A stretch of DNA of 21,026 nucleotides from a virus: positions 1-21,026 of IMG/VR virus record IMGVR_UViG_3300013100_000036; one strand, 5' to 3'. The position numbers and the translations under genes were made by a program. The notes below the pieces were generated by a model. That model was given only the letters and a program-made list of their open reading frames with translations. It made no database searches and had not been told where the DNA came from. Below are positions 1,754 through 20,122 of the stretch, piece by piece (within the stretch, counting starts at the first letter, position 1; each line of letters begins with the position of its first letter).

Positions 1754-1932
1754 CCCGCATCGAAAGGTTTCGTCTACCTGTCTCCCGCTTCGCCAGATCC
1801 GCCCTGTCAGACCCCCACCCTTCGCAGGGATCCGCAGGCTTTTGGACCTTCGCCGCCACTACTACAGCGCCCGGCCGTGGGGGCGCTCGGCCAGGTGCAG
1901 GACTGCGGAAAAAAAGACCCATTTAGCCCGCA

Positions 1933-1950
1933 GGCGAGGTGGGGGGACGA
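1933..1950. other. Candidate cos site (cosN)
   Basis: The sequence GGCGAGGTGGGGGGACGA resembles the P2 cohesive end as I remember it (GGCGAGGCGGGGAAAGCAC): the GGCGAGG block and the following GGGG match. It lies in the expected place, upstream of portal gene Q and next to the att end as in phiCTX. The terminase encoded by P and M would cut here. The match is to a recalled sequence, so the exact cut position is not established. Confidence 0.55.
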
Positions 1951-2004
1951 CGGCGCGCGCCAAGCCACCCGCCTACACCTCTTTATGACACCGTCATGAG
2001 TACC

Positions 2005-2042
2005 TATCGGTAAGCTCATCGCCTCCCTACCGATACATCGGT
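2005..2042. repeat. Clustered inverted half-sites near cos (cosB-like?)
   Basis: TATCGGTA (2005-2012) is repeated inverted as TACCGATA (2028-2035). The second copy overlaps ACCGAT-AC-ATCGGT (2029-2042). Three ATCGGT half-sites within 38 bp, about 55 bp from the cosN candidate, suggest a binding site for a dimeric protein such as the terminase small subunit. The function is inferred. Confidence 0.4.
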
Positions 2043-2146
2043 CGAATCACGGAGTCGGCTTTGCCGTCATGACTGCCTTGACATACGCTTGGGCGATTGC
2101 TGAGAAGCCACTCTAAAACGACCACAATCGCAGGTGACGAAAGTCA

Positions 2147-2175
2147 TTACTGAAGCCGTGTTTGCTACGTATGAT
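2147..2175 (+). promoter_or_regulatory. Candidate promoter of the HEPN cargo operon
   Basis: A good -10 element, TATGAT (2170-2175), has a weak -35, TTACTG (2147-2152), at 17-bp spacing. The predicted start is about 80 nt before the TTG start of the first cargo gene. This would allow expression from the prophage without the late activator. The AT-rich stretch at 2207-2235 is an alternative promoter region. Confidence 0.3.
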
Positions 2176-2262
2176 AGGACTGGTTCCGGAAACGCGATGC
2201 AGGCGTTAAAAAATGAGAGAATATTATTAATTTGTTCGACGTAGAGAAGGGAGTTTCGCGTT

Positions 2263-2796
2263 TTGGAAGAGTCTGAACAAAACTATAGAGCGACAGCAAC
2301 TAACAGTCGAAAATACCCCAAACGCCTTACAGACTACATCGCCACTTTAGTCGGCAGAGGTAGACTTCTAGAGGCCAAGCATTTCTTCTTAGAGCTGTGC
2401 AAAACAAGCCCTAACCATGAAAAGACAATACGATTAGGCTACACCATTGCAATTGCCACCTTTGACAACGACTGGGTGTACAAATACGACAAACTCCTGA
2501 CTGACTCAGCGCAAGAAAGCAGTGAGGTGCTATGGTTTCGATTGCGCTATTATCAATCGCAAAACAACGTTGCAGCTTGCGAAAGTACAAGCTGCGAGCT
2601 ACTTGAAAAACGTCTAAGCAACGACCAACTTACCACCATTCTCGAAGTATGCATCGAACGACATAGCTACATAATAGCCGAACCTTTATCAAGATATTTA
2701 CAAAAGTACCGTATAACACTTTCCCCACAATTCAATACCTGGCTCAAGCAAATAGTTATCACTCAACTAATAGACTCCCTCCAGAGGTACAAATGA
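2263..2796 (+). CDS. Unknown helical-repeat-like protein, first gene of HEPN cargo operon
   Basis: The start is TTG at 2263, chosen because AAGGGAG lies about 8 nt upstream and no ATG is nearby. The 177-residue product appears wholly alpha-helical. It has repeated segments of the kind Y-x-x-x-L-x-x-x-G-R-x-x-E-A (residues about 23-45, LTDYIATLVGRGRLLEAKHF) and further helix pairs, reminiscent of TPR or other solenoid repeats. No named family is recognised. Its last codons overlap the next start (ATGA at 2793-2796), so the two genes are translationally coupled and probably act together. Base composition is much more AT-rich than the phage structural genes, a sign of separate acquisition. By position it is cargo between cos and Q. 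A partner or regulator role for the HEPN protein is inference. Confidence 0.75.
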   Translation: MEESEQNYRATATNSRKYPKRLTDYIATLVGRGRLLEAKHFFLELCKTSPNHEKTIRLGYTIAIATFDNDWVYKYDKLLTDSAQESSEVLWFRLRYYQSQNNVAACESTSCELLEKRLSNDQLTTILEVCIERHSYIIAEPLSRYLQKYRITLSPQFNTWLKQIVITQLIDSLQRYK

Positions 2797-3779
2797 CTAG
2801 CTTTCTAGTAGTGAAAATCTTGGATGATAGAAGCATCACGCTTCCATCCACCCTTAACTACGGAAGCGTTGAACCTCGATCTTATTCGGCTGATACCGAA
2901 CTCGAATCTCAGGCATTTGAAAAATCCGCATCCGAAGGCGGGCTGGATTTTAACAAACATAAAATATGCGCAAGAATTGCCACAATTGTGGACTGCGAAA
3001 CGCACATTGAAGCCATCCATATCGCCGACATCAAATTCTTGGAGGTCCTTGACTTTAAATCGACTGAATTTGCTGTATCAGCGATAAAGACATCCCGAAT
3101 TGGCCTAATCAAAGATTTATCTACAGGCGAAATCACACCCATTGAAAGATACGGATTTCAGCAGTCTCTTTCTTTCGTTGTACGGCACGGCGCGATACAG
3201 TGCATTGATGCGACCAGTTATGTTCTATCACTAAAAAATGAGCTTAGTGACCGATACAAGCGCTCTCTTCACTGGGGAAGAAACAGCAAAAACGAGACGA
3301 ATCCTCAACTGAAGATCATTTTTTTATGGTTTGCCTTAGAGGCGTTATTGAAAGCAGACGAAACCGATAACTGCGTCGAGAGCTATATTCGATTGTTTTT
3401 AGGCTTCCCAAATGGATTACAGCTTTTGATACTATCACCAACGGTGAGAGCCAAATTAGAAGACCATGAGAGATATAAATACTGGCAAAAACAACTTACA
3501 GAAACAGTTAAAGAAATTCGCGACTTCCGCAACAACTCCGTACACTCAGGATTTCGAAGCGTAGATTTCACAAAAGAAAAGCTAGAACTATTCAGCTCAA
3601 TAATGATTTATGCTGTAGGCAGGTGCCAAGCGGGAGTAATGCAAGGCCTGCTCAGCAACTTACAAACACTATCCGAATTCAAAGAATACGCAGTTCCTAT
3701 ATTTGAAAACAATACAAACCTAATAAATGACACTCACAACAATATTATTTACACTCTAGATCACCCTATGTATTACTAA
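2793..3779 (+). CDS. HEPN-domain protein (Apea-like), putative RNase effector
   Basis: This 328-residue protein is encoded in a 4-bp overlap with the gene before it. The N-terminal half (about 1-150) is beta-rich and unassigned. The C-terminal half (about 150-280) is helical and resembles the Apea-like HEPN domain: RYKRSLHW, then FLWFALEALLKAD, then EIRDFRNNSVHSGFR. The last contains the HEPN nuclease motif R-x4-6-H as R246-NNSV-H251. HEPN proteins with this motif are usually metal-independent RNases in toxin-antitoxin and anti-phage abortive systems. The motif and coupling are seen in the sequence; RNase activity and a defence role are inferred. The gene is AT-rich and sits in the slot where phiCTX carries a toxin gene. 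It converges on Q, with a GC-rich hairpin between them. I cannot match it to a named defence system. Confidence 0.75.
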   Translation: MTSFLVVKILDDRSITLPSTLNYGSVEPRSYSADTELESQAFEKSASEGGLDFNKHKICARIATIVDCETHIEAIHIADIKFLEVLDFKSTEFAVSAIKTSRIGLIKDLSTGEITPIERYGFQQSLSFVVRHGAIQCIDATSYVLSLKNELSDRYKRSLHWGRNSKNETNPQLKIIFLWFALEALLKADETDNCVESYIRLFLGFPNGLQLLILSPTVRAKLEDHERYKYWQKQLTETVKEIRDFRNNSVHSGFRSVDFTKEKLELFSSIMIYAVGRCQAGVMQGLLSNLQTLSEFKEYAVPIFENNTNLINDTHNNIIYTLDHPMYY

Positions 3780-3826: not shown

Positions 3827-3847
3827 CGGAGGGGTTACCCCCCTCCG
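3827..3847. terminator. Hairpin between convergent HEPN gene and Q
   Basis: A perfect 8-bp GC-rich stem (CGGAGGGG at 3827-3834, CCCCTCCG at 3840-3847) with a 5-nt loop overlaps the stop codon of Q (3835-3837 on the minus strand). There is no T-run on either side. It could act as a bidirectional terminator or protect 3' ends of both transcripts. Confidence 0.5.
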
Positions 3848-4854
3848 ACTTCATAGAGTCTGAATCGCATAATTTCTTCACCCAGCCAGTCGTTCAACTG
3901 AGTCATTCGCGTCTGTATCGGCTCCAGTTCATTGGCCGCATAAATCTGCGCCGCCTCCCGAATTGACCCAAACCCACCAGCGTTCTGCGGAACAATCCCC
4001 ATCAACTGCGGCGGAATGCGCAGGCTTGCCAACACGTCATCCCGCGTCTGATTCTTGATCGAGTTGAATTCATCCTTCGCTGCCACCTCGCTCACTGGGA
4101 TCAGCTGGATCCCGTCCTTCTTGCCGGTCGGCGAGTACACGAACAAATTCCGAAAATTCCCAGGCCCTTTCGACTCCTTCAACGCTTTCCGCAACGCATC
4201 AATATCAGCCTCAGTCTGCGCCGCATCCGTCATGTACAGAATGAACCCCGCATGACTGCCATTCTCGTAATATTTACGCCGAAACAACGTCGCCGACTCG
4301 TTCAACAACGCGGACTGCAAAGCGCTGATCCACTCCGGCAACCCATAAATCTCCTGGTGCAGATCGGCCTCTCGCAGATGAAAAATGCTGTCAGGCTCAA
4401 ACGCGTGTTCATCCTTCCACCCCCGCACCTGGTAGAACTGCCCATCCGGCCCAGCACGCATGTACTTGGCCAAGGGGGTTTCAAGCTTGCGAACCCCACC
4501 CAGCCGCGAACGCCGCCCCTCAAAATAGCCATTACCCAAGCACAAAAAGTCCAAGGCAAACTGCTCAAACGAAGCCCGCGAAAGCAGCGGATGCGGGATA
4601 AACGTCTTGCTCAGCAGGTTCCGCTTGAACATCAATCCCGAATGCAGATGCACGCTCGCCCCCACCGACCGGGCCAGCCCATCAAGCGACAGCGGAGGCT
4701 CATACCACCGCCCGTTGAACCAGCACTCCAGATAGTCGAAAACCTCCCGACCACCTAGCACCGGCGTCGGCTCGCCGAAGGAAAACACCTGCGTTCCCGC
4801 GCCGGTGGTGGACATGGTCGCGGGCAAACTCTGGTTGGCCATTTGTTCGGTCAT
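3835..4854 (-). CDS. Q: Portal protein (P2 gpQ-like)
   Basis: The 339-residue product matches P2 gpQ in length (344) and in typical segments such as VFDYLECWFNGRWYEPPLS near the start and LMGIVPQNAGGFGSIREAA near the end. The latter belongs to the phage portal (PBSX/P2 type) family. A dodecamer of this protein forms the portal vertex through which DNA enters and leaves the head, and it anchors terminase during packaging. The start ATG (4852-4854) overlaps the stop of P in an ATGA arrangement, so the leftward P-Q operon is coupled. Expression is probably from the late promoter between P and O. Q is the last gene before the cargo and cos region. Confidence 0.95.
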   Translation of the reverse strand: MTEQMANQSLPATMSTTGAGTQVFSFGEPTPVLGGREVFDYLECWFNGRWYEPPLSLDGLARSVGASVHLHSGLMFKRNLLSKTFIPHPLLSRASFEQFALDFLCLGNGYFEGRRSRLGGVRKLETPLAKYMRAGPDGQFYQVRGWKDEHAFEPDSIFHLREADLHQEIYGLPEWISALQSALLNESATLFRRKYYENGSHAGFILYMTDAAQTEADIDALRKALKESKGPGNFRNLFVYSPTGKKDGIQLIPVSEVAAKDEFNSIKNQTRDDVLASLRIPPQLMGIVPQNAGGFGSIREAAQIYAANELEPIQTRMTQLNDWLGEEIMRFRLYEVGGG

Positions 4855-6611
4855 CAGTAAATCTCCATGCGCCCGGTGTTGGCAGTGGTCTGCCCCTCAA
4901 GCGGTTCGTGGTGCAATGCGTGAAAGAGTGCCCAGGCCAGGTCGGCGTGGCCGGTGTTGTCGTTGCGGCCGGCGGTGTAGGTGTACTGGCGTCCGCCGGC
5001 GGTGACGGTTTTGCGGATCGCCATCAGCGACTGGGCCATGTCGGTCCAGCCGGCGTCGAATTCGAGCCGGCCCTTGTGGATCACGTCGTAGGCCTTAAGT
5101 ACCAGGCGTGTTTTGACTTCGGGCGAGTAGCTGAAGGTGGTGACCGCCGGGAAGAACTGGCGCACCAGCTGGGCCACGCCGCTGCCCAGACCGGTCACGT
5201 CGACGCCGATGTAGGTCACCCAGTAGCGGTCGCAGACGCTCTTGATGAACGCAGCCTGCGCGGCGAAGTCCATGCCCCGGAATTGGTGGCGTTCGAGGAT
5301 GCGAAACTTGCCACCCGGTACCAGGGGCGGCGCGACCACGACCATGCCGGAGCAGTCGCCCGTCTCGGCCGGGTCGTAGCCTATCCAGACCTGACGGTCG
5401 CCGAACGGGCGCATGGCGAACGGTTTGTAGTCCTCGGCCCACTCGACCCAGCTGTCCACCATGCACGACTGCAACAGGGTCAGCGGGAAGATGCTCGCGC
5501 CGTCATCGACAAACTCGCACATCAGCAGGTTGGCGAACGCTTCGGGGCTGTACTCCCGGCGCAGCTCCTCGATGTCGAACAAGTCACACCCACCCCGCTC
5601 CGCGTCCAGAATCGTGACGATCTGCCGCCACAATCGATCCTCACAGAACCGGCCCTGCTGGAGCGCGCCGTGGGACACGTCCACCTTCGTATGCTGCGCG
5701 GCGGGCTTGCCCTTGTTGAAGCGCTCGCCCGTCCAGAAGGTGTACGCCTCGTGGGCCATGCTCGACGGCGTGGAAAAGTAAGTCTTGCGCCACTTCTTGT
5801 GCATCGCCATGCCCGAGGCGACCTTGTTCAGCTCCTCAAACTTGAACGTCCAGAAGAACTCGTCGAAGTAGAAATTGCCGTGATAGCCCTGGGCGGTACG
5901 CGCGTTGGTACCGAGGAAAAACAGCTCGGCGCCGTTGGGCAAAACAATGGGATCGCCAGTCAGTTCGACGCCGATAATCTCGCGGCAGAACGCCTGAATG
6001 TAGCCCCGGAACAGGTAGGCCTGGTTCTTAGAAGCCGACAGGAAAATCTGGTTGCGCCCGGTGTCCAGCGCATCGATAAACGCCTCGCGGGCGAAGTAGT
6101 AAGTCGCACCGATCTGCCGGCTCTTGAGAATGACGCGGGTGCGCTGATTGCCAGCCCGGTACCAGTCTTTCTGATAGTCGAAACAGCCATCGATGAAGGC
6201 CTCGCGCAGCAGCTCGATTTGGTCTTCATCAATCTCGTTTTTGACCGCCTTTTTCTTCAGCTCGGCGTTGCGCTTGGCCAGGTTCGGGTTGAGGTCGGTT
6301 TCGGTACCGCCACCCTGAAAGCGCTGGATGCGCGCCTGCCGCTCCAACTGCCGGTGCAGCAAATCAATCTCTTTGAAATCGCCGCCGCTTTTCCCTTCCT
6401 TGAGGATGAGTTGCACCAAGCGCGCTTCCAGCGCCCCGCCGATGCGTTCGACGTTGTCGGCCCGGTCCCACTCATCGCGAGCCTTCCAGCTGTGTAGCGT
6501 TTTTTCCTTTTCGCCCGTAGCCTCGGCAATCTCGCAGATGCGCCAGCCCATCCAGTAGAGAAACTTGGATTGGCGGCGGGGATCGATGGGCAGCAGTTCG
6601 GTCGTAGTCAT
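4854..6611 (-). CDS. P: Terminase large subunit, ATPase/nuclease (P2 gpP-like)
   Basis: The product is 585 residues against 590 in P2. An N-terminal helix-turn-helix-like stretch (about 23-48, ICEIAEATGEKEKTLHSW) precedes a terminase ATPase. The ATPase has a deviant Walker A, KSRQIGAT (about 163-170), and a Walker B, FYFDEFFW (about 247-254). The C-terminal RNase H-like nuclease shows acidic residues in WIGYDPAETGD (about 409), YIGVDVTG (about 470) and GHADLAWAL (about 556). It would cut cos and pump DNA into the capsid together with gpM, docking on gpQ. The ATG at 6611 has no usable RBS. It lies about where the late promoter predicts transcription to start, so the mRNA may be leaderless. Confidence 0.96.
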   Translation of the reverse strand: MTTTELLPIDPRRQSKFLYWMGWRICEIAEATGEKEKTLHSWKARDEWDRADNVERIGGALEARLVQLILKEGKSGGDFKEIDLLHRQLERQARIQRFQGGGTETDLNPNLAKRNAELKKKAVKNEIDEDQIELLREAFIDGCFDYQKDWYRAGNQRTRVILKSRQIGATYYFAREAFIDALDTGRNQIFLSASKNQAYLFRGYIQAFCREIIGVELTGDPIVLPNGAELFFLGTNARTAQGYHGNFYFDEFFWTFKFEELNKVASGMAMHKKWRKTYFSTPSSMAHEAYTFWTGERFNKGKPAAQHTKVDVSHGALQQGRFCEDRLWRQIVTILDAERGGCDLFDIEELRREYSPEAFANLLMCEFVDDGASIFPLTLLQSCMVDSWVEWAEDYKPFAMRPFGDRQVWIGYDPAETGDCSGMVVVAPPLVPGGKFRILERHQFRGMDFAAQAAFIKSVCDRYWVTYIGVDVTGLGSGVAQLVRQFFPAVTTFSYSPEVKTRLVLKAYDVIHKGRLEFDAGWTDMAQSLMAIRKTVTAGGRQYTYTAGRNDNTGHADLAWALFHALHHEPLEGQTTANTGRMEIY

Positions 6612-6618
6612 GGCCGCG

Positions 6619-6677
6619 ATGCTGCCGCCCGCGCCCGCGACTCAATAGCGCTGCCGCTTGTACCGCCCTGCCCTACA
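6619..6677 (-). promoter_or_regulatory. Late promoter PP (Ogr-type), leftward
   Basis: The dyad TGTA-N11-TACA (6659-6677) is shared with the divergent promoter of O. Going left, 31-40 nt past the dyad, comes GCGGCAGCAT, which includes a -10-like hexamer CAGCAT (6619-6624). The same layout is found before V and FI. P2 late promoters bind Ogr at a TGT-N12-ACA dyad centred near -55; here the gap is one base longer. With that geometry transcription starts at or next to the ATG of P. Confidence 0.65.
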
Positions 6678-6717
6678 GTCCTGCCTCATTGCCGCAACTC
6701 GCGCGCGTCACGACCAT
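6659..6717 (+). promoter_or_regulatory. Late promoter PO (Ogr-type), rightward
   Basis: This uses the same dyad as PP (6659-6677). The -10-like hexamer GACCAT (6712-6717) sits at the same offset as in the other three late promoters. The predicted start, about 6724, leaves a leader of about 57 nt before the ATG of O at 6781. It should drive the O-to-S head and lysis operon. Confidence 0.6.
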
Positions 6718-6780
6718 GCCCTTCATCGCAACGCACTGCTCACCCAACAGCAGGCGCCCCAAGCAATGAGGATTTCCGGC

Positions 6781-7611
6781 ATGAAGAAGTTTCGCAGCAA
6801 CTGGTTCCGCGTCGCCGTCGAGGGCGCTACCTCGGACAAGCGCATCATCAAACGTACCTGGCTGGAACAGGCTGCGAAGAACTTCAACCCGTCCACCTAC
6901 GGCGCCCGCATCTGGCTGGAGCATTACCGGAGCGTGATGCCGGACAGCCCATTCAAAGCCTACGGCGACGTGCTGGCTGTGAAGACCGAAGAAGTGGACA
7001 TCAACGGGCAGAAGAAACTGGCGCTGTTTGCCCAGGTTGAGCCGACGTCCGATCTGATCGCCATGAACAAGGCGAAGCAGAAGATTTACACCTCCATCGA
7101 AATCGACGACAGCTTTGCCGATACCGGCGAGGCGTACATCGTCGGACTCGCGGTAACCGACTCCCCGGCCAGCCTTGGCACCGATGTCCTGGCGTTCTCC
7201 GCGCAGAAGCCAGACGCCAATCCGTTCAAGGATCGCCACTACTCCGCAACCTCGATGTTCACCGAAGCGCTGGAAACCGAGCTGACCTTTGAAGAAATCG
7301 AGGACAAACCAAGCCTCGGCGCTCAGCTGTTCAGCAAGGTGCAAATCCTGCTCGGCGGCAAACAGGCCAAGGATGACGCCGAGTTCTCGCAGATCAGCCA
7401 AGCCGTCGAGGCCGTCGCCGAACACGTCAAGGACCTGCCCGACCAACTGACCGCCGAGAAGAAGTTCTCCGCAGGCCTAAGTACCCGACTGGATCAATTG
7501 AGCAAGGACTTCACCGAGTTGAAGGCCAAGCTCTCGAACACCCAAGACCACAACCAGAAGAAGCGCCCTCCGGTCACCGGTGGCGACAACCAGGTCATGA
7601 CCGACTGCTGA
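6781..7611 (+). CDS. O: Capsid scaffolding protein and protease (P2 gpO-like)
   Basis: I chose ATG 6781 rather than earlier in-frame starts because GAGGA lies 7-8 nt upstream. This start also puts the protease residues at the P2 positions: Asp19, His48 and Ser105 (P2 Asp19, His48, Ser107). The 276-residue product (P2 284) has an N-terminal serine protease (about 1-150, with KKFRSNWFRVAVEG, WLEHYRS and IYTSIEIDD). Its C-terminal scaffold half (about 200-260) is helical and coiled-coil-like. It guides shell assembly, then cleaves capsid, portal and itself. It is the first gene of the rightward late operon. Confidence 0.95.
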   Translation: MKKFRSNWFRVAVEGATSDKRIIKRTWLEQAAKNFNPSTYGARIWLEHYRSVMPDSPFKAYGDVLAVKTEEVDINGQKKLALFAQVEPTSDLIAMNKAKQKIYTSIEIDDSFADTGEAYIVGLAVTDSPASLGTDVLAFSAQKPDANPFKDRHYSATSMFTEALETELTFEEIEDKPSLGAQLFSKVQILLGGKQAKDDAEFSQISQAVEAVAEHVKDLPDQLTAEKKFSAGLSTRLDQLSKDFTELKAKLSNTQDHNQKKRPPVTGGDNQVMTDC

Positions 7612-7654
7612 CAGCCGGCCCACCCACAGCCCCGACCCACGAAGGACGATATTC

Positions 7655-8674
7655 ATGCGTAACGACACTCGCGAACACTTCAACGCTTACCTGAGCCAGT
7701 TGGCGCGCCTAAATGGCGTGTCCTCGACTGCCGCCACTTTCGCGGTCGATCCGACCGTCCAGCAAACGCTGGAAACCCGCATGCAGGAATCCAGCGAATT
7801 CCTCGGCCAGATCGGCATCATCGGCGTCGATGAGCTGCAAGGCGAAAAAGTCGGCCTTGGCGTCAGCAGCACCATCGCCGGCCGTACCGACACTACCGGC
7901 AACGGCGTCCGCCAACCTCGCGACGTGTCGTCGCTGGACAAGAAAGGCTACGAAGCCAAGCACACCGACTTCGACACCGCGATCCGCTACGCGCAGCTCG
8001 ACGCCTGGGCGAAGTTCCCGGACTTCCAGGCACGCCTGCGCGACGCGATCCTCAAACGCCAAGCCCTCGACCGCATCATGGTCGGCTTCAACGGCGTCAG
8101 CGCTGCCGCCACCACCGACCGACAGGCCAACCCCCTGTTGCAAGATGTCAACATCGGCTGGCTTCAGCAGTACCGCAACAACGCCTCGGCGCGCGTGCTC
8201 AAGGATGGCAAAACCGCCGGCAAAATCGTCATCGGCACCGGTGCAGAAGCGGACTACAACAACCTCGACGCGCTGGTGTACGACGCCATCGCCAACCTGA
8301 TCGATCCTTGGCACCGCAAGGACCCGGGCATCGTGGTCATCCTCGGCAGCAACCTGGTGCACGACAAATATTTCCCACTGATCAACAAGGAACAGCCGGC
8401 CACCGAGAAATTGGCAACCGACATGATCCTGTCGCAAAAGCGCATGGGCGGTAAGCAGCCAATCGAAGTGCCGTATGTGCCCGACGGCGCTGCACTGATC
8501 ACCACGCTGAGCAACCTGGCCATCTACTGGCAGATCGGTGGACGCCGTCGCTACGTGAAGGAAGCGCCGGAAAAGAACCGCATCGAGAACTACGAATCCA
8601 GCAACGATGCCTATGTCGTTGAGGATTACGGCCTCGGCTGCCTGGTCGAAAACATCGAGCTTGAAGGGGCATAA
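7655..8674 (+). CDS. N: Major capsid protein (P2 gpN-like)
   Basis: The 339-residue product has the P2-family capsid features: the opening MRNDTREHFNAYLSQLARLN, then QTLETRMQESSEFLGQI, and a C-terminal QIGGRRRYVKEAPEKNRIENY segment with VVEDYG. The ATG at 7655 follows GAAGGACG. It forms the HK97-fold icosahedral shell and is normally trimmed at the N-terminus by gpO. The gene sits directly after the scaffold/protease, as in P2 (357 aa there). Confidence 0.96.
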   Translation: MRNDTREHFNAYLSQLARLNGVSSTAATFAVDPTVQQTLETRMQESSEFLGQIGIIGVDELQGEKVGLGVSSTIAGRTDTTGNGVRQPRDVSSLDKKGYEAKHTDFDTAIRYAQLDAWAKFPDFQARLRDAILKRQALDRIMVGFNGVSAAATTDRQANPLLQDVNIGWLQQYRNNASARVLKDGKTAGKIVIGTGAEADYNNLDALVYDAIANLIDPWHRKDPGIVVILGSNLVHDKYFPLINKEQPATEKLATDMILSQKRMGGKQPIEVPYVPDGAALITTLSNLAIYWQIGGRRRYVKEAPEKNRIENYESSNDAYVVEDYGLGCLVENIELEGA

Positions 8675-8677
8675 GCC

Positions 8678-9379
8678 ATGGCCAGCAGCCTCGCCAAGCA
8701 GCATTTCCAGCGAGTCACTGCCGCCATTGAGGCGGCAGCGACCGAACCCACGCAAACCATGGCCGGCGCCACGGCCTACGAACATCAGCTCAACCAGTTG
8801 CTGCAAGATCGCCTGCGCCTGAAACAGGTGCAATCGAATCAGGGCAAGGCCGAACTCAAGCGTCAGCTGCTGCCCGAATACATCCCCTACGTGCAAGGCG
8901 TGCTGGACGCTGGCCAAGGTGCCCAAGACGAAGTGCTGACCACCATCATGGTTTGGCGCTTCGATGCCGGCGACTTCACCGGCGGCCTCGACATCGCGCA
9001 GTACGTGCTGCAACACAAGATGGTCATGCCGGACCGCTTCGCCCGCACGCTGGGCTGTCTGGTCGCCGAAGAAGTCGCGACCGCCGCGTTCAAGGCGCAG
9101 AAGGTCGGCGAGCCTTTCGACTTGGCCGTCCTGCACCGCACCGCCGAACTGACCGACGCCGAAGACATGCCCGACCAGGCACGCGCCAAGCTGTTCCTCG
9201 CCATGGGGCGCGCAACACTCGAAGGCATCACCGACGAAAAGCCCGGTCAACCTGGCCAAGTGCAAGCCGGCATCGACTTGCTGAAAAAAGCCATCGACCT
9301 GCACGACGCCTGCGGTGGCAAAAAGGATCTGGAGCGGGCCGAACGCCTGCTCAACAAACTTGCTGCCGCTGGCAGCTAA
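8678..9379 (+). CDS. M: Terminase small subunit/endonuclease (P2 gpM-like)
   Basis: The 233-residue product starts 3 bp after N stops. It shows the P2 gpM pattern (P2 247 aa): a basic N-terminal part with LLQDRLRLKQVQSNQGKAELKRQ, the central VLTTIMVWRFDAGDF, and a C-terminal helical DLLKKAIDLHDACGGKKDLERAERLL. gpM works with gpP at cos during packaging. The translational arrangement and order N-M-L fit P2. Family assignment is from this pattern plus position. Confidence 0.92.
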   Translation: MASSLAKQHFQRVTAAIEAAATEPTQTMAGATAYEHQLNQLLQDRLRLKQVQSNQGKAELKRQLLPEYIPYVQGVLDAGQGAQDEVLTTIMVWRFDAGDFTGGLDIAQYVLQHKMVMPDRFARTLGCLVAEEVATAAFKAQKVGEPFDLAVLHRTAELTDAEDMPDQARAKLFLAMGRATLEGITDEKPGQPGQVQAGIDLLKKAIDLHDACGGKKDLERAERLLNKLAAAGS

Positions 9380-9483
9380 CCGAGCGTCCCCACGCACCCC
9401 GCCGGCTCGGGGCGGATCGGCCAGGCCGCTCCTCCTGAACGTGAAGCCCCGACCACCGGCGACCTATAACAGAGCGCAGATTC

Positions 9484-9954
9484 ATGAGCGGATTCGTAGC
9501 GGGCGGCAGCGGTACTCCGGCCACCAGCGGCCACATCAACACCGACCCCTTCTGGCCATCGATCGACCTCGACGACGTGCGCGGCACTTTGCGCATCGAC
9601 TCCAGCGTCACAGCGATCCGTCTGGAAACCGCGACCATCGCCGCCGCCATCAGCGTGAACCGCGAGTTCGCCACATGGCGCCGCGCCAAACAGGCCGAAG
9701 GCTACGCCACCCTCGCGGACGTACCGGCCGAGCAGATCGAGGACAAATCTGAACTGATTCACCTCTACCAACGGGCGATCTATGCGGCGACCGGCGCCGA
9801 AATCTGCGAGCGCTACCGCTCCTTCGACAGCACCAACAGCGGCAACCAAAACGCCGAAGAACTGACCCCGAGCATCGACGAATTGCGCCGCGACCAACGT
9901 TGGGCCGTGCGCGACTTCCTCGGCCTCGGCCGCACCACCGTGGAGTTGATCTGA
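9484..9954 (+). CDS. L: Head completion/stabilisation protein (P2 gpL-like)
   Basis: The 156-residue product (P2 169) contains the typical DPFWPSIDLDDVRGTLRID block, close to the GDPWWPDIDL region of P2 gpL, and a helical C-terminus ending in RDFLGLGRTTVELI. It binds the filled head at the portal and prepares it for tail joining. A 104-bp gap after M holds no gene. The ATG at 9484 has only a weak AGAG upstream. Its stop overlaps the start of X by one base. Confidence 0.92.
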   Translation: MSGFVAGGSGTPATSGHINTDPFWPSIDLDDVRGTLRIDSSVTAIRLETATIAAAISVNREFATWRRAKQAEGYATLADVPAEQIEDKSELIHLYQRAIYAATGAEICERYRSFDSTNSGNQNAEELTPSIDELRRDQRWAVRDFLGLGRTTVELI

Positions 9955-10166
9955 TGGCCGTCAGCATCCGCGCCCAGCAGAACGACACCGTCGATGCTCT
10001 GTGCTGGCGTCACTACGGCCGCACCGCTGGCGTCACCGAAGCAGTACTCGAAGCCAACCCCGGACTTGCCGACCACGGCCCGACCTTGCCGCAAGGCCTT
10101 CTGGTGCAAATGCCCGAAGCCCAAGCCGCCGCCCCGCAACGGCAGATGGTGAACCTATGGGACTGA
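9954..10166 (+). CDS. X: Tail protein X (P2 gpX-like)
   Basis: The start ATG shares a base with the stop of L (TGATG). The 70-residue product (P2 67) has the gpX/LysM-like pattern QNDTVDALCWRHYGRT, then VLEANPGLADHGPTLPQGLLVQMP. Small proteins of this type are thought to bind peptidoglycan or help tail assembly. Earlier in-frame starts would run into L and are rejected. Confidence 0.93.
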   Translation: MAVSIRAQQNDTVDALCWRHYGRTAGVTEAVLEANPGLADHGPTLPQGLLVQMPEAQAAAPQRQMVNLWD

Positions 10167-10220
10167 ACCGCCCGCACCGCGCCCTTGAACCCAACCACTC
10201 TGGATCATGGAATGAAACGC

Positions 10221-10535
10221 ATGCCTGACCGTCCCGATACCTGGGCCTGGCTCGCCGCCTGGCTCGAACAGAACTGGCCCGCCATCTACTCCGGCCTGCT
10301 GGCCGTTGTCATTGCGAGCCTTCGAGTGATCTACGGCGGCGGCACCGTGCGCCGGATGGTGATCGAGGCTCCCCTTTGCGGCGCACTCGCTCTGTCCGCC
10401 AGTCATGGGCTGTCACTGCTGGGGATTCCAGCCTCGACTGCGCCGTTCTTCGGAGGCGTCATCGGGCTGCTCGGCGTTGAGGGCACTCGCGCGGCCGCCA
10501 AGAAGATTTTCAACCGCAAGGTAGAGCAACTATGA
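10221..10535 (+). CDS. Y: Holin (P2 gpY position; lambda-type holin family)
   Basis: The product of about 104 residues begins MPDRPDTWAW. It has up to three hydrophobic segments: about 23-40 (SGLLAVVIASLRVIY), about 54-70 (CGALALSASHGLSLLG) and about 76-90 (FFGGVIGLLGVEG). A basic C-terminus, KKIFNRKVEQL, follows. This fits the phage holin, lambda family. It would permeabilise the inner membrane to release the muramidase encoded next. The starts at 10185 and 10212 are also in frame. I prefer 10221 because GGAA sits 8 nt upstream; a dual start cannot be excluded. The stop overlaps the lysozyme ATG. Confidence 0.85.
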   Translation: MPDRPDTWAWLAAWLEQNWPAIYSGLLAVVIASLRVIYGGGTVRRMVIEAPLCGALALSASHGLSLLGIPASTAPFFGGVIGLLGVEGTRAAAKKIFNRKVEQL

Positions 10536-11374
10536 CCACACTTCGCCACGGTGACCGCTCGCAAGCGGTTCGCAATCTGCAAAAGAGCCTCAACCAACAC
10601 GGCGCAAAACTGGACGTCGATGGCGATTATGGCGATGCCACGGAGAACGCCGTGCGCGCCTATCAACTCAAGGTTGGTTTGGTAGCCGATGGCGTCGCCG
10701 GCAACAAGACACTCAGCGCGCTCACCGGCACCGACTGCCAGCAGTTGCTGAAGAATGCCGACCTAGTCAACGCCGCCGAACGCCTCGGCGTGCCGCTAGC
10801 CAGCGTCTACGCGGTCAATGAAGTTGAATCGAAAGGCAGTGGCTTTCTCGATAATGGCAAACCGGTGATCCTGTTCGAACGACACATCATGTATCGCCAA
10901 CTGGCGAAGGTTCGGCACGAAGGCGACGACCCCGCCGCGCTCAAACGCCACGCTGATCAGTTGGCCGCAACCAACCCGGCCATCATCAATCCGAAATCCG
11001 GCGGCTATGCCGGCGGTAGCGTCGAACACCAGCGCCTGGCGACCGCTCGCCTGATCGACGACACCGCCGCGCTGGAGTCCGCTTCGTGGGGCGCGTTCCA
11101 GATCATGGGCTTTCACTGGCAGCGCCTGGGTTACAGCAGCGTGCAAGACTTCGTCGCCGCCATGAATGCAGGCGAGTCGCAACAGTTCGACGCGTTCGTC
11201 CGTTTCATCGAGACCGACCCGGTGCTGCACAAGGCGCTGAAGGGCCGCAAATGGACCGAGTTCGCCAAGCTCTACAACGGACCGGATTACCAGCGAAACC
11301 TGTACGACATCAAACTCCAGCGCGCCTACGAACGGCACGATGACTGCGGTTGTGGGCAGGCGGTGGCAGCATGA
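10532..11374 (+). CDS. K: Endolysin, N-acetylmuramidase with peptidoglycan-binding domain
   Basis: The 280-residue product is modular. Residues about 5-65 form a peptidoglycan-binding domain of the PG_binding_1 type (LRHGDRSQAVRNLQKSL, DGDYGDATENAVRAYQ, DGVAGNKTLSAL). Residues about 85-270 form an N-acetylmuramidase (DUF3380-type) domain. The likely catalytic Glu is E99 in the AVNEVESKGSGF motif (E97 is also acidic), and SWGAFQIMG lies further on. There is no signal peptide, so it depends on the holin for export. P2 gpK is a smaller, different lysozyme, so this is a functional replacement at the same locus. The ATG overlaps the holin stop (ATGA). Confidence 0.93.
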   Translation: MTTLRHGDRSQAVRNLQKSLNQHGAKLDVDGDYGDATENAVRAYQLKVGLVADGVAGNKTLSALTGTDCQQLLKNADLVNAAERLGVPLASVYAVNEVESKGSGFLDNGKPVILFERHIMYRQLAKVRHEGDDPAALKRHADQLAATNPAIINPKSGGYAGGSVEHQRLATARLIDDTAALESASWGAFQIMGFHWQRLGYSSVQDFVAAMNAGESQQFDAFVRFIETDPVLHKALKGRKWTEFAKLYNGPDYQRNLYDIKLQRAYERHDDCGCGQAVAA

Positions 11375-11577
11375 TCGACTTCGACGCGGTGCAGCGGCTG
11401 AATGTCCAGGACGGTGATCTGCTGGTAGTGCCAGAGGACAGCGATCAGCAGGACATGGTGCAACTGCGCGACGCGCTCCGCATCCAGAACCCTCAGCGCA
11501 AAGTCATCATCATTCGTGGCCCTATCCAGCACATGGACATCGGCGACATGAATCAACTCGGCTGGTACAGGGCGTGA
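11371..11577 (+). CDS. Small hypothetical protein in lysis cassette, 68 aa
   Basis: The ATG at 11371 overlaps the endolysin stop (ATGA). The frame ends at TGA 11575-11577, overlapping the GTG of lysB. The 68-residue acidic protein (LNVQDGDLLVVPEDSDQQD, then KVIIIRGPIQHMDIGDMNQLGWYRA) has no membrane segment or signal peptide. I cannot name a family. The tight overlaps on both sides show that it is part of the lysis operon. Its role, perhaps timing of lysis, is unknown. Confidence 0.8.
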   Translation: MIDFDAVQRLNVQDGDLLVVPEDSDQQDMVQLRDALRIQNPQRKVIIIRGPIQHMDIGDMNQLGWYRA

Positions 11578-12017
11578 GCATCTTGCGGCAGGCCTTGCTC
11601 GGCGTTGCATTGCTTGCAGCGCTGGGGCTGCTTATCTGGAGTCAGGAGCTGCGCATCAGCGGGGCGCACAAGGACACCCGATTGGCCGAGCAAGACGCCA
11701 CCCGCGCCCGAGAACAAGCCGAGCGCAACCTCGCCAATGCCAACGCGTTGCGCGACACCCTGCAACAGGAACGCAACGCCCAGACCACCCTGCGCACGCA
11801 ACAGGATCAACTGCGCCAAGGCCTGGCAAAGCGCGAACTCACCATCGAGGCTCTGAAACGTGAAAATGCCGATCTACGCAATTGGGCTGCACAGCTTTTG
11901 CCTGATGCTGCTCGCCGGCTGCGCGAGCGCCCCGCCCTCACCGGCGCCGACGCTTATCATCAGTGGCTGTCCGGCCGTGGTGCCGTGCACGCTGCCGGCG
12001 ACCAGCCCGCGCAGTAA
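11574..12017 (+). CDS. lysB: LysB/Rz-like i-spanin
   Basis: The start is GTG 11574 (GTGA overlap with the gene before). The 147-residue protein has one N-terminal membrane segment (about 5-22, ALLGVALLAALGLLIW). A long charged coiled coil follows (about 30-105, rich in Glu, Arg and Gln, e.g. EQDATRAREQAERNLANA). This is the layout of an inner-membrane spanin (DUF2570/LysB). It would pair with the LysC lipoprotein to fuse inner and outer membranes in the last step of lysis. Its 3' half contains lysC in another frame. Confidence 0.88.
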   Translation: MSILRQALLGVALLAALGLLIWSQELRISGAHKDTRLAEQDATRAREQAERNLANANALRDTLQQERNAQTTLRTQQDQLRQGLAKRELTIEALKRENADLRNWAAQLLPDAARRLRERPALTGADAYHQWLSGRGAVHAAGDQPAQ

Positions 12018-12117
12018 CGGCGATGAGCTCACCGAGCAGGATCGCGTCGAGGCGGCGTGGGCAGACTGTGCGAGCCAGGTGGACATGGTTTACCAACACC
12101 AGCAGGCCCGACCATGA
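11860..12117 (+). CDS. lysC: LysC/Rz1-like o-spanin lipoprotein, nested in lysB
   Basis: The gene starts inside lysB in a different frame. I chose GTG 11860 because GAGG lies 9-10 nt upstream; ATG 11866 is the alternative. The 85-residue product has a lipoprotein signal with lipobox LAGC (Cys21 from the GTG start), then a proline-rich segment (ASAPPSPAP). It ends in a short helical domain (ELTEQDRVEAAWADC). This is the Rz1-type outer-membrane spanin. The embedded arrangement is classic for P2 and lambda spanin pairs. Its stop overlaps the start of R (ATGA). Confidence 0.88.
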   Translation: MKMPIYAIGLHSFCLMLLAGCASAPPSPAPTLIISGCPAVVPCTLPATSPRSNGDELTEQDRVEAAWADCASQVDMVYQHQQARP

Positions 12118-12590
12118 ACAAGCCCGACAGCCTGAAAGCGCACCTGCTCGCTACCGTGGCCGAACTCAAGCACAACCCCGACCGGCTGTTGATCTTCATC
12201 GACAACGGTAAGATCCGCTGCACGGCCGCGCAGACGCTGTCGTTCGAGTACAGCTTCGACCTGCAAGTCATCCTCACAGACTTCGCCGGCCACCCCGACA
12301 GCGTAATGCTGCCACTGCTCGGCTGGTTGAGCGTGCACCAGTCCGAACTGCTGGAGAACCTGAGCAAGGCCGCTGACGGCATTCAGTTCGAGGCTGACAT
12401 TCTCGACAATAGCAAAGTAGACATGAGCCTGACCCTTCCCCTGACCGAGCGCGTGGTGCTGGGCAAGGACGACCGGGGTAACACAACCATCCGCCATCCC
12501 GGTGAACCGCAACGAGCTGCAGATTTCCTCGATCCTAACTGGATACCTGGCGCCCAAGGCACCGGCAGCGAGTGGGTACTGCCGAAATGA
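12114..12590 (+). CDS. R: Tail completion protein (P2 gpR-like)
   Basis: The 158-residue product (P2 155) begins MNKPDSLKAHLLATVAELKHNPDRLLIFIDNG. It shows the gpR pattern, with FEYSFDLQVILTDFAGHPD and a C-terminal LDPNWIPG. gpR and gpS are needed to finish the tail and to join it to the head. Both ends overlap neighbours by ATGA, so R, S and lysC are coupled. Confidence 0.93.
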   Translation: MNKPDSLKAHLLATVAELKHNPDRLLIFIDNGKIRCTAAQTLSFEYSFDLQVILTDFAGHPDSVMLPLLGWLSVHQSELLENLSKAADGIQFEADILDNSKVDMSLTLPLTERVVLGKDDRGNTTIRHPGEPQRAADFLDPNWIPGAQGTGSEWVLPK

Positions 12591-13045
12591 CCAACCGGTT
12601 AGAGGCGCTGGAGGATTGGGCGGCGGGATTGCTCGGGCAGCTTGAGCCAGCATCGAGAAACAAGCTGGCCCGTAGTCTCGGCCAGGCATTACGACGCAGC
12701 CAGCAACAACGAATCATTGCCCAACAGAATCCGGACGGCAGCAAGTACGCGCCGCGCAAGCAACGCAACCTGCGTGGAAAACAGGGCCGATTGAAACGTA
12801 AGTTGAAGATGTTCCATAAACTGCGCACAGCCAGTTTCTTCAAGGTGCACGGTGATGGAAGCGCTGTAATCGCTGGTTTTTCAGGGCGAGTGGCCCGAAT
12901 TGCAAGGGTGCACCAGTATGGGTTGATGGATCGTGCCGAACGTGGTGCACCCGAGGTGCAATACATGAAACGGGAGCTGCTGGGTCTGACTGAGACTGAT
13001 CTTGAGTTGATTCGCGACTTGCTTCTGAAACACTTAATCCTTTAA
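12587..13045 (+). CDS. S: Tail completion/virion morphogenesis protein (P2 gpS-like)
   Basis: The 152-residue product (P2 150) has the basic gpS/virion-morphogenesis pattern: LARSLGQALRRSQQQRIIAQ, NPDGSKYAPRK, RVARIARVHQYG and a C-terminal LRDLLLKHL-type helix (LELIRDLLLKHLIL). The ATG at 12587 overlaps the stop of R. Normally V follows. Here the operon is interrupted 11 bp later by an oppositely oriented cargo gene, so S is the end of this transcription unit. Confidence 0.93.
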   Translation: MTNRLEALEDWAAGLLGQLEPASRNKLARSLGQALRRSQQQRIIAQQNPDGSKYAPRKQRNLRGKQGRLKRKLKMFHKLRTASFFKVHGDGSAVIAGFSGRVARIARVHQYGLMDRAERGAPEVQYMKRELLGLTETDLELIRDLLLKHLIL

Positions 13046-13056
13046 CAGTTAAGCAA

Positions 13057-13899
13057 TTATTTCCAGCGACCTACTGCCGTAATTTGAAAAGCGCCGGCAC
13101 CTGGTGCACAAGCTTTAAAGTCTTCATCCGCAAATTTAATTCGAAACCCGCTTCTGGTCGTCATGATAGCCGCATACTTCGCTGGGTAGAATTCCGGAGA
13201 CAGTACTTGTAAAGGAAGAGGCAGATTCTTCAAAAACTCAAAATACTTGAGGACCTCATCCTTCTTGCCATCAACTAAAAAATCAATACCTTCGACAATC
13301 TCTGTTTCCGTAAGAAAAAATAGATAATTCAACACTAAATAATTGGCGACTCGCCCTCCCTTGAGTGGCACGGGATAACGATGCACGGGTTGATCCCTTC
13401 TTTCGTTAACGATCAGTTTTTCACCATCCATGAACGCACAATTGAGGATCATCTGCTCAGCAGGCTCGAGAATCGAACATCCGGCCCATTCTTGCTTTAG
13501 CTCAAACTTTGCAAGCTCGGGGAACCGTTCACTGAGAAAAATATTTCTTTCTGAGTCGTATAAAAAATCCCCTAGACTAATCGCGCCTCTTAACGGGAGT
13601 TTATTTTTGAAACCCAGTTCGAGTAAGAAAGAAACAGATGCCACAAAATTGTTGACATTATAGACATCATCAACCGGACACGAAACTAAGACTATGGAGT
13701 CAAACAAAAACTGAGAAAAATCAAAATTCTTTCTTCCTTCATCATCGCCTAGTGCTCCATAGAAAGTTTTTACTTTTGCCTCATCTATAAAAGACGAGTA
13801 CTTCTCATGCAGGCTATCTATATTCCCAGCTTCCAACCGCGCGGAGAACCCCAGTACATCCAGAAACGCAATGAGCCGATTTTCAAGTTTAATGACCAC
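13057..13899 (-). CDS. Class III nucleotidyl-cyclase-like protein, cargo gene
   Basis: The start is GTG 13899 with a very strong Shine-Dalgarno (AGGAGGT at 13903-13909). The 280-residue protein opens with RLIAFLDVLGFSARLE (Asp14). It then has FLFDSIVLV (Asp67) and PLRGAISLGDF (Arg104-Gly105). These match, in order, the first metal-binding Asp and DxxGF strand, the second metal-binding Asp on the beta2-beta3 hairpin, and the RxGxxxG strand of class III adenylyl/guanylyl cyclase folds. Residues after about 200 are unassigned. There is no membrane segment or signal. It is clearly AT-rich against GC-rich neighbours and faces against the operon, so it is a moron. Cyclases of this fold include the cCMP/cUMP synthases of Pycsar defence, but no effector gene is adjacent. 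Activity is not shown; it could be a degenerate or non-cyclase homologue. Confidence 0.7.
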   Translation of the reverse strand: MVIKLENRLIAFLDVLGFSARLEAGNIDSLHEKYSSFIDEAKVKTFYGALGDDEGRKNFDFSQFLFDSIVLVSCPVDDVYNVNNFVASVSFLLELGFKNKLPLRGAISLGDFLYDSERNIFLSERFPELAKFELKQEWAGCSILEPAEQMILNCAFMDGEKLIVNERRDQPVHRYPVPLKGGRVANYLVLNYLFFLTETEIVEGIDFLVDGKKDEVLKYFEFLKNLPLPLQVLSPEFYPAKYAAIMTTRSGFRIKFADEDFKACAPGAGAFQITAVGRWK

Positions 13900-13956
13900 G
13901 TTACCTCCTAGAGAGCTTGGAATTCACATACCAGTATTCAAAACTCAACCTTTTCA

Positions 13957-14015
13957 TGTAGCTGGGGATACTACAACCCTTGCCACTTTCTCCGCACGCA
14001 TGCGGGCGCCACCAT
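13957..14015 (+). promoter_or_regulatory. Late promoter PV (Ogr-type)
   Basis: TGTA-N11-TACA (13957-13975) is followed, 31-40 nt later, by GCGCCACCAT with the -10-like hexamer CACCAT (14010-14015). The dyad centre is 57 bp from the ATG of V, exactly as for P. The predicted start site is at the ATG, so the V mRNA may be leaderless; there is no RBS before V. This promoter restarts transcription after the inserted cargo gene. Confidence 0.65.
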
Positions 14016-14022
14016 CGGCGCC

Positions 14023-14595
14023 ATGAACGACTCAGCCACCCTCGCCCGCCTGATCGAAAATCTCATCCGCCTCGGCACCATCGCTGCCGTCCAGATGAAG
14101 CCGCCGCGCGTGCAGGTCAAAACCGGAACACTCACCACCGGCTGGCTACCATGGGTCGTCGCCCGAGCCGGCGCCGACCGCGAATGGAACCCGCCCACCG
14201 AAGGCGAGCAAGTCATCCTGTTCAGCCCATCCGGCCAACTCGGCAACGGCATCGTCCTGACCGGCCTGTTCAGCGACAACATCCCAGCCAACGGCGACCG
14301 TGAAGGCCTGCACCGAACGACCTACCGCGACGGCACCGTCATCGAGTACGACAGCGTCGCTCACCACCTCAACGCCACATTGGCCGAAGGCGGCACCACC
14401 AACCTGGTCAGCACCGGCGGCATTCACATCGTCGGCCCGATCACCCACGAGGGCGACTACACCCAGACCGGTAACCAGAACGTTACCGGCACGGTCACCG
14501 TGTCCAAAGACGTCATCGCGGCCGGCATCAGTCTGGTGAAGCACCTGCACGGCGGTGTCATGCCGGGCGGTGCGAAAACGGGGAAACCGGAATGA
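14023..14595 (+). CDS. V: Baseplate spike protein (P2 gpV-like)
   Basis: The 190-residue product (P2 211) starts MNDSATLARLIENLIRLGTIAAVQ. It has an OB-fold-like N-terminal half with GWLPWVVARAG and GEQVILFSPSGQLGNGIVLTG. A repetitive beta-helix tail (THEGDYTQTGNQNVTGTVTVS) follows, ending in KHLHGGVMPGGAKTGKPE. The H174-x-H176 motif resembles the metal-binding HxH at the tip of P2 gpV. The trimer would form the membrane-piercing needle. No RBS precedes the ATG. Confidence 0.93.
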   Translation: MNDSATLARLIENLIRLGTIAAVQMKPPRVQVKTGTLTTGWLPWVVARAGADREWNPPTEGEQVILFSPSGQLGNGIVLTGLFSDNIPANGDREGLHRTTYRDGTVIEYDSVAHHLNATLAEGGTTNLVSTGGIHIVGPITHEGDYTQTGNQNVTGTVTVSKDVIAAGISLVKHLHGGVMPGGAKTGKPE

Positions 14596-14936
14596 ACCGA
14601 GAAACCGGCGCAGCCCTCGGCCTGGTCGAACACATCGCCCAGTCGATCTCCGACATCCTGACCACACGCATCGGCACCCGCGTCATGCGCCGCGAATACG
14701 GCAGCTTGCTCCCGGAGCTGGTGGATCAGCCGTTCAATGACTTCACCCGTTTGCAGGTCTACGCCGCCACCGTCATGGCGCTGATGCGTTGGGAAACCCG
14801 CATCAGCCTCAGCCGTATTCAGTTCGTCGGCGCGAACCTGCAGGGCCAGGCGTCGCTGGAATTCGAAGGCACCATCGTCGACAACAATCAGCCGCTGAGC
14901 CTGAGCGTGCCTCTGCAACTGGGAGGCAGCGTATGA
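14592..14936 (+). CDS. W: Baseplate protein (P2 gpW / gp25-like)
   Basis: The 114-residue product (P2 115) belongs to the gpW/gp25 lysozyme-like baseplate family, with IAQSISDILTTRIGTRVMRREYGS and LLPELVDQPFN. It is part of the baseplate wedge that links the hub with the sheath. Start and stop both overlap neighbours by ATGA. Confidence 0.95.
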   Translation: MNRETGAALGLVEHIAQSISDILTTRIGTRVMRREYGSLLPELVDQPFNDFTRLQVYAATVMALMRWETRISLSRIQFVGANLQGQASLEFEGTIVDNNQPLSLSVPLQLGGSV

Positions 14937-18825: not shown

Positions 18826-18838
18826 TCTGTCTCGTCGG

Positions 18839-18861
18839 GAGGCGCTGTCCTGTAGCGCCTC
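18839..18861 (+). terminator. Hairpin ending the V-to-G operon, overlapping the PF activator site
   Basis: A perfect 8-bp stem (GAGGCGCT at 18839-18846, AGCGCCTC at 18854-18861) with a 7-nt loop starts 13 bp after the stop of G. There is no long T-run. The right arm lies inside the TGTA-N11-TACA dyad (18851-18869), so transcription from upstream and activator binding at PF could interfere. Confidence 0.5.
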
Positions 18862-18909
18862 TCCCTACAAGTCCCAGCCCTCGCCCATCCGGCGCGCGCG
18901 CGGCAGCCT
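18851..18909 (+). promoter_or_regulatory. Late promoter PF (Ogr-type)
   Basis: TGTA-N11-TACA (18851-18869) is followed, 31-40 nt later, by GCGGCAGCCT with the -10-like hexamer CAGCCT (18904-18909). That 10-mer is identical to the PP one except for one base. The predicted start, about 18915, leaves a leader of about 30 nt before FI. Confidence 0.65.
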
Positions 18910-18945
18910 GTGCACTGTCATCCCATTTACTGCGCAGGCAAATCC

Positions 18946-20115: not shown

Positions 20116-20122
20116 ATCGGCG

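Follow-up and report, generated by a model that had tools for sequence, protein, structure and literature searches.

HEPN proteins are recognized by an Rx4-6H motif with a polar residue after the arginine and by an Ex3[KR] motif (PMC3710099), and several described systems resemble the locus analyzed here. The LA2681 family, which conserves Rx4-6H, is entered in Table 1 of that survey as "Fused to TPR, and in operon with TPR," the AbiU2 family is paired in the same table with a Sel1-repeat gene, and ApeA has an N-terminal domain of ~300 amino acids (aa) (PMC3710099). Tha, a HEPN ribonuclease (RNase) of Staphylococcus prophages, blocks phages and is activated by tail proteins; its inhibitor Ith, encoded by a separate small antisense overlapping gene, prevents autoimmunity, and blocking is lost when the motif His is mutated (PMC11087260). 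Here we describe a 21,026-nucleotide virus record (IMGVR_UViG_3300013100_000036, positions 1 to 21,026; the whole stretch is called the window) with two overlapping genes, A and B, encoding a predicted TPR-like protein and a predicted HEPN RNase. With a probability of about 0.55, we read the pair as a mobile conflict module of two genes. It would most likely be an anti-phage system that acts by abortive infection and travels as cargo of prophages, in which the TPR-like A would control the HEPN RNase B.

A predicted HEPN domain in gene B

Gene B (2793..3779, + strand) is an open reading frame (ORF) of 328 aa with an ATG start, whose product, a predicted RNase effector, combines an N-terminal alpha/beta domain with a C-terminal HEPN domain. 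Relatives occur at 15 further loci, making 16 with the window, where two Klebsiella plasmids are counted once and the Escherichia coli copies once (L numbers below denote loci and G numbers denote genomes). The AlphaFold2 model of B, built on seven sequences, has a mean predicted local distance difference test score (pLDDT) of 78, and when residues 151-290 are divided into 14 blocks of ten, 13 of these score 81-92. In a comparison with 996 aligned chains, HEPN-named structures occupy ranks 1 to 5 and rank 7, six of the best nine (Z 5.5-6.7, root mean square deviation 3.3-4.0 over 105-116 residues, model residues 143-290), and the matches at ranks 8 and 9 (1ufb and 7bxo) are proteins that we take to be HEPN/HepT. 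Model confidence, the VIA-align matches over 143-290, and the invariant residues place the HEPN domain at residues 146-290 (3228..3662, +).

Weak profile matches coincide with this region. The best subthreshold Pfam scores among B members are 18.7 bits for RiboL-PSP (cut-off, 28.4), 18.5 for DUF4145 (23.1), and 16.0 for HEPN_Apea (24.4); across 11 members, all matches being weak, DUF4145 is found in four, MoaF_like in three, RiboL-PSP-HEPN in two, and HEPN_Apea in one. We take the MoaF_like matches (best E 0.03) to be chance. In PADLOC, window B matches ApeA (E 0.00093) and a Csx20-type CARF-HEPN model (E 0.0059, residues 229-283), while the 11 members yield Csx1 in eight (best 3.5e-5), CARF-HEPN in seven, CARF-HEPN-Csx20 in five, and ApeA in two. 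Wherever coordinates are shown, the Csx1 and CARF-HEPN matches fall within B residues 162-283. An initial annotation, made from the sequence of the window, had called the C terminus an "Apea-like" HEPN domain. The HEPN assignment survives the fold comparison and the scans of several members against profile libraries, where every single curated profile stays below its cut-off. The Apea label is only partly apt, since Csx1-type and DUF4145-type models match more members.

The predicted RNase active site is the Rx4H motif R246-N-N-S-V-H251 (3528..3545, +), whose residues are those initially annotated. R246, N247, H251, and E183 are invariant at all 16 loci, as is the longer pattern R-N-x3-H-x-G-F-R, and K187 of the Ex3K motif (E183/K187) is kept in 90% or more of 11 members. 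The motif was demanded by the search pattern for L015, L016, L018, and L019, and L056-L059 were found with two alternative patterns, one of which included the greater part of the motif; it is nonetheless present at seven of the seven relatives found without it in the query (L002, L003, L005, L009, L012, L013, and L042, among which L003 and L009 are near copies). Nineteen of the 28 invariant B residues lie in the 145 residues of the HEPN domain and nine in the remaining 183. The predicted fold, the coincident weak profile matches, and the motif together support identification of the C-terminal half of B as HEPN, and we infer that B cleaves RNA.

The N-terminal domain (residues 1-116; 2793..3140, +) is predicted by the model to be alpha/beta, not beta-rich as first proposed. 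It has no profile match at a curated cut-off, and no family is assigned. A CARF-type N terminus, prompted by the Csx1 and CARF-HEPN matches, was rejected, as these lie at residues 162-275 in seven of the eight proteins scanned or at 229-283 in the window. A resemblance to transposase 2ec2, presumably an HUH fold, is too weak to use (Z 4.7).

Gene A and its coinheritance with gene B

Directly upstream, gene A (2263..2796, +) starts with TTG and encodes 177 aa; it is preceded by a Shine-Dalgarno-like AAGGGAG (2247..2253, +), and an AAGGAG stretch with a TTG start is likewise found in L016 and L019. The AlphaFold2 model (pLDDT 91.9) contains 10 helices, in keeping with the "all-helical, repeat-like" protein anticipated from the sequence. 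TPR chains are prominent among its best VIA-align matches (Z 11-13), and Foldseek returns TPR proteins with a probability of about 1.0 but an E of 0.011 at best. No Pfam TPR profile exceeds its gathering score, with TPR_8 at E 0.0025 (L042) and TPR_19 at E 0.077 in one of nine members. By its modeled fold, A is thus confidently predicted to be a TPR-like alpha-solenoid, its sequence matches to TPR profiles staying below cut-off, and we predict that A is a regulator or sensor. Neither a DNA-binding domain nor a nucleotidyltransferase is matched in A by Pfam.

The two genes are coupled by an ATGA overlap of the A stop and the B start (2793..2796, +), which, like the coordinates of both genes, agrees with the initial annotation. 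ATGA recurs in L005, L013, L016, L019, L058, and L059, with GTGA in L056; the overlap is 8 bases in L015 and L057 and, counting from the first possible start of B, 23 in L042 and L043. A single base separates the genes in the Klebsiella and E. coli copies, and the widest gap at any locus is about 17 bases. At all 16 loci, an A gene, in one case frame-broken, lies directly upstream of B on the same strand. Only the E. coli search had a query containing both genes (as DNA), all others being made with B by itself; at the 14 loci found through B, with the window and E. coli left out, A is present 14 times. The identity matrices of A and B are strongly correlated (r = 0.961 for 15 loci and 0.937 for 12 nonredundant loci), a value reached in 0 of 10,000 permutations. 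The proposed co-occurrence of the two genes in homologues is thereby borne out. Between the window and L016, the proportion of nonsynonymous differences (pN) is below that of synonymous differences (pS) in both A (pN 0.30, pS 0.72) and B (pN 0.17, pS 0.76), indicating that both are under purifying selection.

Some copies depart from this pattern. In L012, A is frame-broken (L012:7491-7983, with the break after a run of A bases) and B is open. B is frame-broken near its start on the Pantoea plasmid (L002:7985-8040) and in E. coli NCTC9104 (L010:15485-16520), where it is one base longer than its sister copy. Intact copies exist as well, and the broken ones fit relaxed or costly selection, or sequencing error. 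The A of L043 is too divergent for the A profile; its gene overlaps B and encodes 217 aa, for which a TPR-type model, ANAPC3, gives a weak match (E 0.0076).

A cargo slot beside the portal gene

The structural genes of the window match the Citexvirus phages Sirocco and Dobby (76% identity over 41% of a 17-kb query), so that the phage carrying the pair is related to Citexvirus, the phiCTX genus. Convergent with the pair, and outside the module, is the portal gene Q (3835..4854, -), which marks the cargo slot. Portal genes occupy the equivalent position in Dobby, Sirocco, and D14A, where other genes (hypothetical, their proteins not compared singly) fill the place of the pair. Five phages, namely the window, L016, L019, L058, and L059, hold the pair in this Q region of P2-like phages, in line with the cargo slot suggested at the outset. 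The portals of the other four are 56-71% identical to that of the window by local alignment. For L016 and L019, an identity of 68% over 339 aa was also obtained; the Q proteins of L058 and L059 are 56-57% identical and their P proteins 59-62%. The L058 and L059 cargo proteins are 31-34% (A) and 48% (B) identical to those of the window.

Base composition sets the pair apart, confirming that it is AT-rich: its G+C is 0.415 versus 0.603 for positions 3835-21026, and the same holds in L016 (0.392 versus 0.606 for Q) and L059 (0.319 versus 0.544). Between L016 and L019, Q is more diverged (pS 0.28) than A (pS 0.10) and B (pS 0.08), a sign that different backbones may have exchanged the cargo. In these two P2-like prophages the pair adjoins Q, with an SOS-response-associated peptidase (SRAP) gene on the opposite side (L016:2968-3681 and L019:7837-8517, -; the profile match was tested for L016 only). 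In L058 and L059, a large gene on the other side of the pair is read by eye as replication gene A, and an ORF of 367 aa (L058) or 69 aa (L059) lies between the pair and Q. The pair of L057 is located elsewhere, beside genes read by eye as tail or baseplate genes.

Two further features of the window are recorded here. A second AT-rich island (13057-13899, -; G+C 0.41-0.44) holds a 280-aa ORF without a Pfam match at E 0.01 and is probably another cargo gene, and the AT-rich left part includes a 146-aa protein (420-860, +) with a Pfam DUF7079 match (E 1.1e-26). Rfam yields no match in the window at the gathering score, and a regulatory RNA beside the pair, in the style of AbiF, was rejected on this basis.

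Distribution and genomic contexts

Outside the Q region, 3 of 72,556 plasmids carry B, two from Klebsiella and one from Pantoea (36.8-37.3% identity), and tblastn with A alone recovers the same three. It also occurs in Shewanella sp. OPT22 (48% identity), in genomes G713 and G902, and on the chromosomes of 7 of 5,426 E. coli genomes, where the pair is almost the same as that of Klebsiella (96.5-96.6%). The phage records with B are L012, L015, L016, L018/L043, L019, and L056-L059. Members are 324-344 aa long, and NCBI names some copies "HEPN domain-containing protein." Repeats of counted loci are L004 (a copy of L003), L010 and five other E. coli copies, L011, L017, L020, L048, L054, L055, and L060-L063. 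Left out of the count are the weak matches L014/L021 (G736, E 3.2e-4) and L045, L046, and L047 (E 3.1e-6 to 1.8e-4); in the latter three, the match covers part of some other protein that lacks a Pfam HEPN match, and distant kinship is possible. The L047 protein that weakly resembles part of B has 602 aa and no Pfam match, and a YfbU-domain protein is encoded upstream of it (L047:3596-5984, -).

In E. coli, the immediate neighbor of the pair is a Shedu gene (SduA_C), and the island that contains them also has a relaxase and a type I restriction gene. In Shewanella it follows resolvase-like and transposase-like genes (by eye), in L015 it is beside an integrase (by eye), and in L012 it adjoins an antirepressor-like gene (by eye), C4 antisense RNA, and isrK. 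In G902 (locus L042), genes for a Ser/Thr kinase and a PP2C phosphatase (1798-3305, -) directly flank the pair, and a phage-type integrase is nearby. In G713, an attC-like palindrome directly follows B (L020:8644-8744), but its DNA fold exceeds those of shuffles only modestly (z = -1.88, with 8 of 200 as good). The sequence that precedes A shows no clear advantage over its shuffles (29 of 200 as good); the G713 pair may be a two-gene integron cassette.

Other genes near the pair are listed as observations. The small prophage record L019 also encodes a PIN_8 protein and a RelA/SpoT-domain protein, possibly further conflict genes (L019:10417-11796 and 12686-13738, -). Proteins sharing "QAG.D..IT..LS" (by eye) near the pair in L016 (5172-6239, -) and L056 (3371-4309, +) possibly form a shared cargo family. 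On the Klebsiella oxytoca plasmid, annotated DUF86 and nucleotidyltransferase genes in an HEPN-MNT-type arrangement lie about 4 kb from the pair (L003:3311-3999, -).

A proposed anti-phage module and its alternatives

In the mechanism that we propose, B would be an HEPN ribonuclease, probably a dimer, with R246 and H251 at the active site, and its N-terminal alpha/beta domain might regulate the enzyme or bind a ligand. A, translated just before B through the coupled start, would bind B and hold it silent in the lysogen; upon infection by a competing phage, A would switch B on. Tha provides a precedent, showing that a prophage protein with a C-terminal HEPN domain and RN-x3-H can block phages (PMC11087260). 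The initial annotation had proposed a two-gene HEPN cargo operon with the helical protein as partner of the nuclease, and of that picture the HEPN domain, the co-occurrence, the conservation, and the slot stand, while the Apea label and the beta-rich N terminus are not supported in detail.

Several observations weigh against this interpretation. In the B model, the block at 251-260, which includes H251, has a pLDDT of 66, and the unassigned N-terminal domain is of low confidence at 13-21 and 87-97. An unrelated designed binder stands at rank 6 of the B matches (Z 5.5), and VIA-align cautions that a Z below 8, or below about 13 for helical bundles, may reflect a common arrangement; as the Z values of B are below the safe range for helical bundles, the HEPN fold is accepted only together with the motif. 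Foldseek finds no match for B at an E of 0.001 or better. No curated Pfam profile matches window B or the other members scanned at its cut-off, and the case for HEPN therefore rests on converging evidence. Promoter-like and terminator-like sites do not rise above shuffles. A known anti-phage gene was noticed as a direct neighbor at E. coli only, in contexts that were not scanned systematically.

The pair is also rare. Besides the 7 of 5,426 E. coli genomes, there is no match to B in 50,697 named phage records or in 368 other Gammaproteobacteria sampled (1 of 369 being the search centre). In the order of the search centre, 3 of 394 genomes match, comprising the centre, one strong match, and one weak match. 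A further sample was the family, which we take to be Pseudomonadaceae, of a genome with a terminase 82% identical to that of the window; there, 4 of 398 match, one strongly. The lack of a match in 56 genomes of one genus shows nothing by itself.

Mobility alone fits toxin-antitoxin modules equally well, and the leading alternative, unlikely but deserving serious weight, is a type II addiction module in which B is an HEPN RNase toxin and A, translated first and coupled to it, a TPR-like antitoxin, so that the pair maintains its prophage, plasmid, or island and any defense is secondary. The small co-directional operon with its closely spaced upstream partner, the correlated A and B distances, the presence of the pair on plasmids, prophages, and an island and beside an attC-like element, and the HEPN toxins that are the best fold matches of B are all as expected of such a module. 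Set against these are the absence of a Pfam DNA-binding match in A and the N-terminal domain that B has besides HEPN. The broken A beside an open B in L012 would also be intolerable with a constitutive toxin, unless it reflects sequencing error or B is silent there, and so argues mildly against a simple toxin-antitoxin pair.

The N-terminal domain of B would find a role if B itself, like Tha, sensed a phage protein through it, with A as an adaptor or as a self-immunity factor that keeps B inactive during induction of the carrier prophage. The example of a tail-protein-activated prophage HEPN RNase with a separate inhibitor gene (PMC11087260) lends this arrangement some appeal, yet we consider it improbable: B shows no similarity to a Tha-1/Tha-2 profile (of two sequences, and weak), Ith is small, antisense, and overlapping while A is co-directional and TPR-like, and A accompanies B on plasmids and an island too, where prophage self-immunity is not needed. 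Prophage cargo often serves other roles, and the kinase and phosphatase genes adjoining the pair in L042 could suggest a moron for lysogenic conversion or for RNA-level regulation of host or phage genes, but an RNase motif intact at 16 of 16 loci and the occurrence of the pair outside phages, beside Shedu in E. coli, make this very improbable.

Returning to an anti-phage module under the control of A, a bolder version is tentative and falls somewhat short of even odds: the pair may be an old, undescribed immune system in which a TPR-like sensor of incoming phage licenses an HEPN RNase, used repeatedly in the P2-like Q region to exclude rivals. The pair spans gammaproteobacterial phages, plasmids, and islands, and a divergent form occurs in a phage with Gram-positive-looking gene content (by eye). 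If the pair is an immune system, it offers a compact two-gene case for solenoid control of an HEPN RNase and for the question of how such an enzyme can be borne by a prophage that must itself be inducible.

Comparison with known systems

Neither A nor B is matched at curated or convincing strength in Pfam, NCBIfam, PHROGs, or the 2023 PADLOC; the best PHROG match (E 0.003) is to the Klebsiella A. No convincing solved relatives were found by sequence, and the viral fold library gives no match at an E of 0.001 or better. Among the literature matches listed, the titles and opening lines of abstracts describe no TPR-HEPN gene pair as phage defense, and the passages of PMC12988326 considered contain nothing on the pair. 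HEPN domains are reported in 4 of 31 further validated DefensePredictor systems, with TPR named in a legend (PMC13092281), and the E. coli copy could be among them. Remote HEPN similarity is given for 6 of 21 systems by Vassallo et al. in 2022 (PMC9519451), and HEPN is named among the uncharacterized systems of the P4 hotspot (PMC9122126); either set may likewise include the pair.

By structure, B is closest to the HEPN-MNT (HepT-MntA) systems: its three best matches comprise two HEPN toxins (8xdj and 8yuf) and an HEPN-MNT complex (8xeh). In contrast, A is a TPR-like solenoid, not a nucleotidyltransferase, and B has an additional N-terminal domain. By profile, B recalls Csx1/Csm6-type proteins in its HEPN part, but no CARF-domain match is seen in its N terminus; no CRISPR array or cas gene was noticed at the loci read, although no search was aimed at them.

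ApeA shares with B a C-terminal HEPN domain with RN-x3-H and the weak PADLOC match (PDLC02157) already noted. Membership of B in that family is rejected on three lines of comparison. The best member stays below the HEPN_Apea cut-off, and window B does not match that Pfam profile. In size, two sampled HEPN_Apea proteins have 462 and 464 aa against 324-344 for B, which has about 145 residues before HEPN and no N-terminal ApeA model among its Pfam matches. Finally, there is no profile-profile match between B and these two proteins (a two-row profile). Tha-1 and Tha-2 resemble B in being prophage-borne, with a C-terminal HEPN domain and R-N-x3-H (R265NSIMH270 in Tha-1; PMC11087260). Direct comparison gives an hhalign probability of 0.1 with a Tha profile of two rows, a weak comparison. 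Ith, small and antisense, is unlike the co-directional 177-aa A, and "TPR" has 0 occurrences in the main text of the Tha paper (PMC11087260).

In gene organization, LA2681 is a counterpart. Kinship of B with it is rejected, as there is no Pfam HEPN_LA2681 match in the window (E up to 10) or in 11 members (E up to 1); this kinship was tested by profile alone, a search of 185 genomes for LA2681 having given one partial subthreshold match and no usable protein. The TPR partner that characterizes LA2681 operons nevertheless has its parallel here, as A is TPR-like by fold and lies upstream of B at 16 of 16 loci. LA2681 already exemplifies an HEPN gene with a TPR gene as its neighbor, so the pair is not a new category; what it adds is a coherent, coinherited TPR-HEPN module, unrecognized by the curated libraries used and carried in the Q region of at least five P2-like phages.

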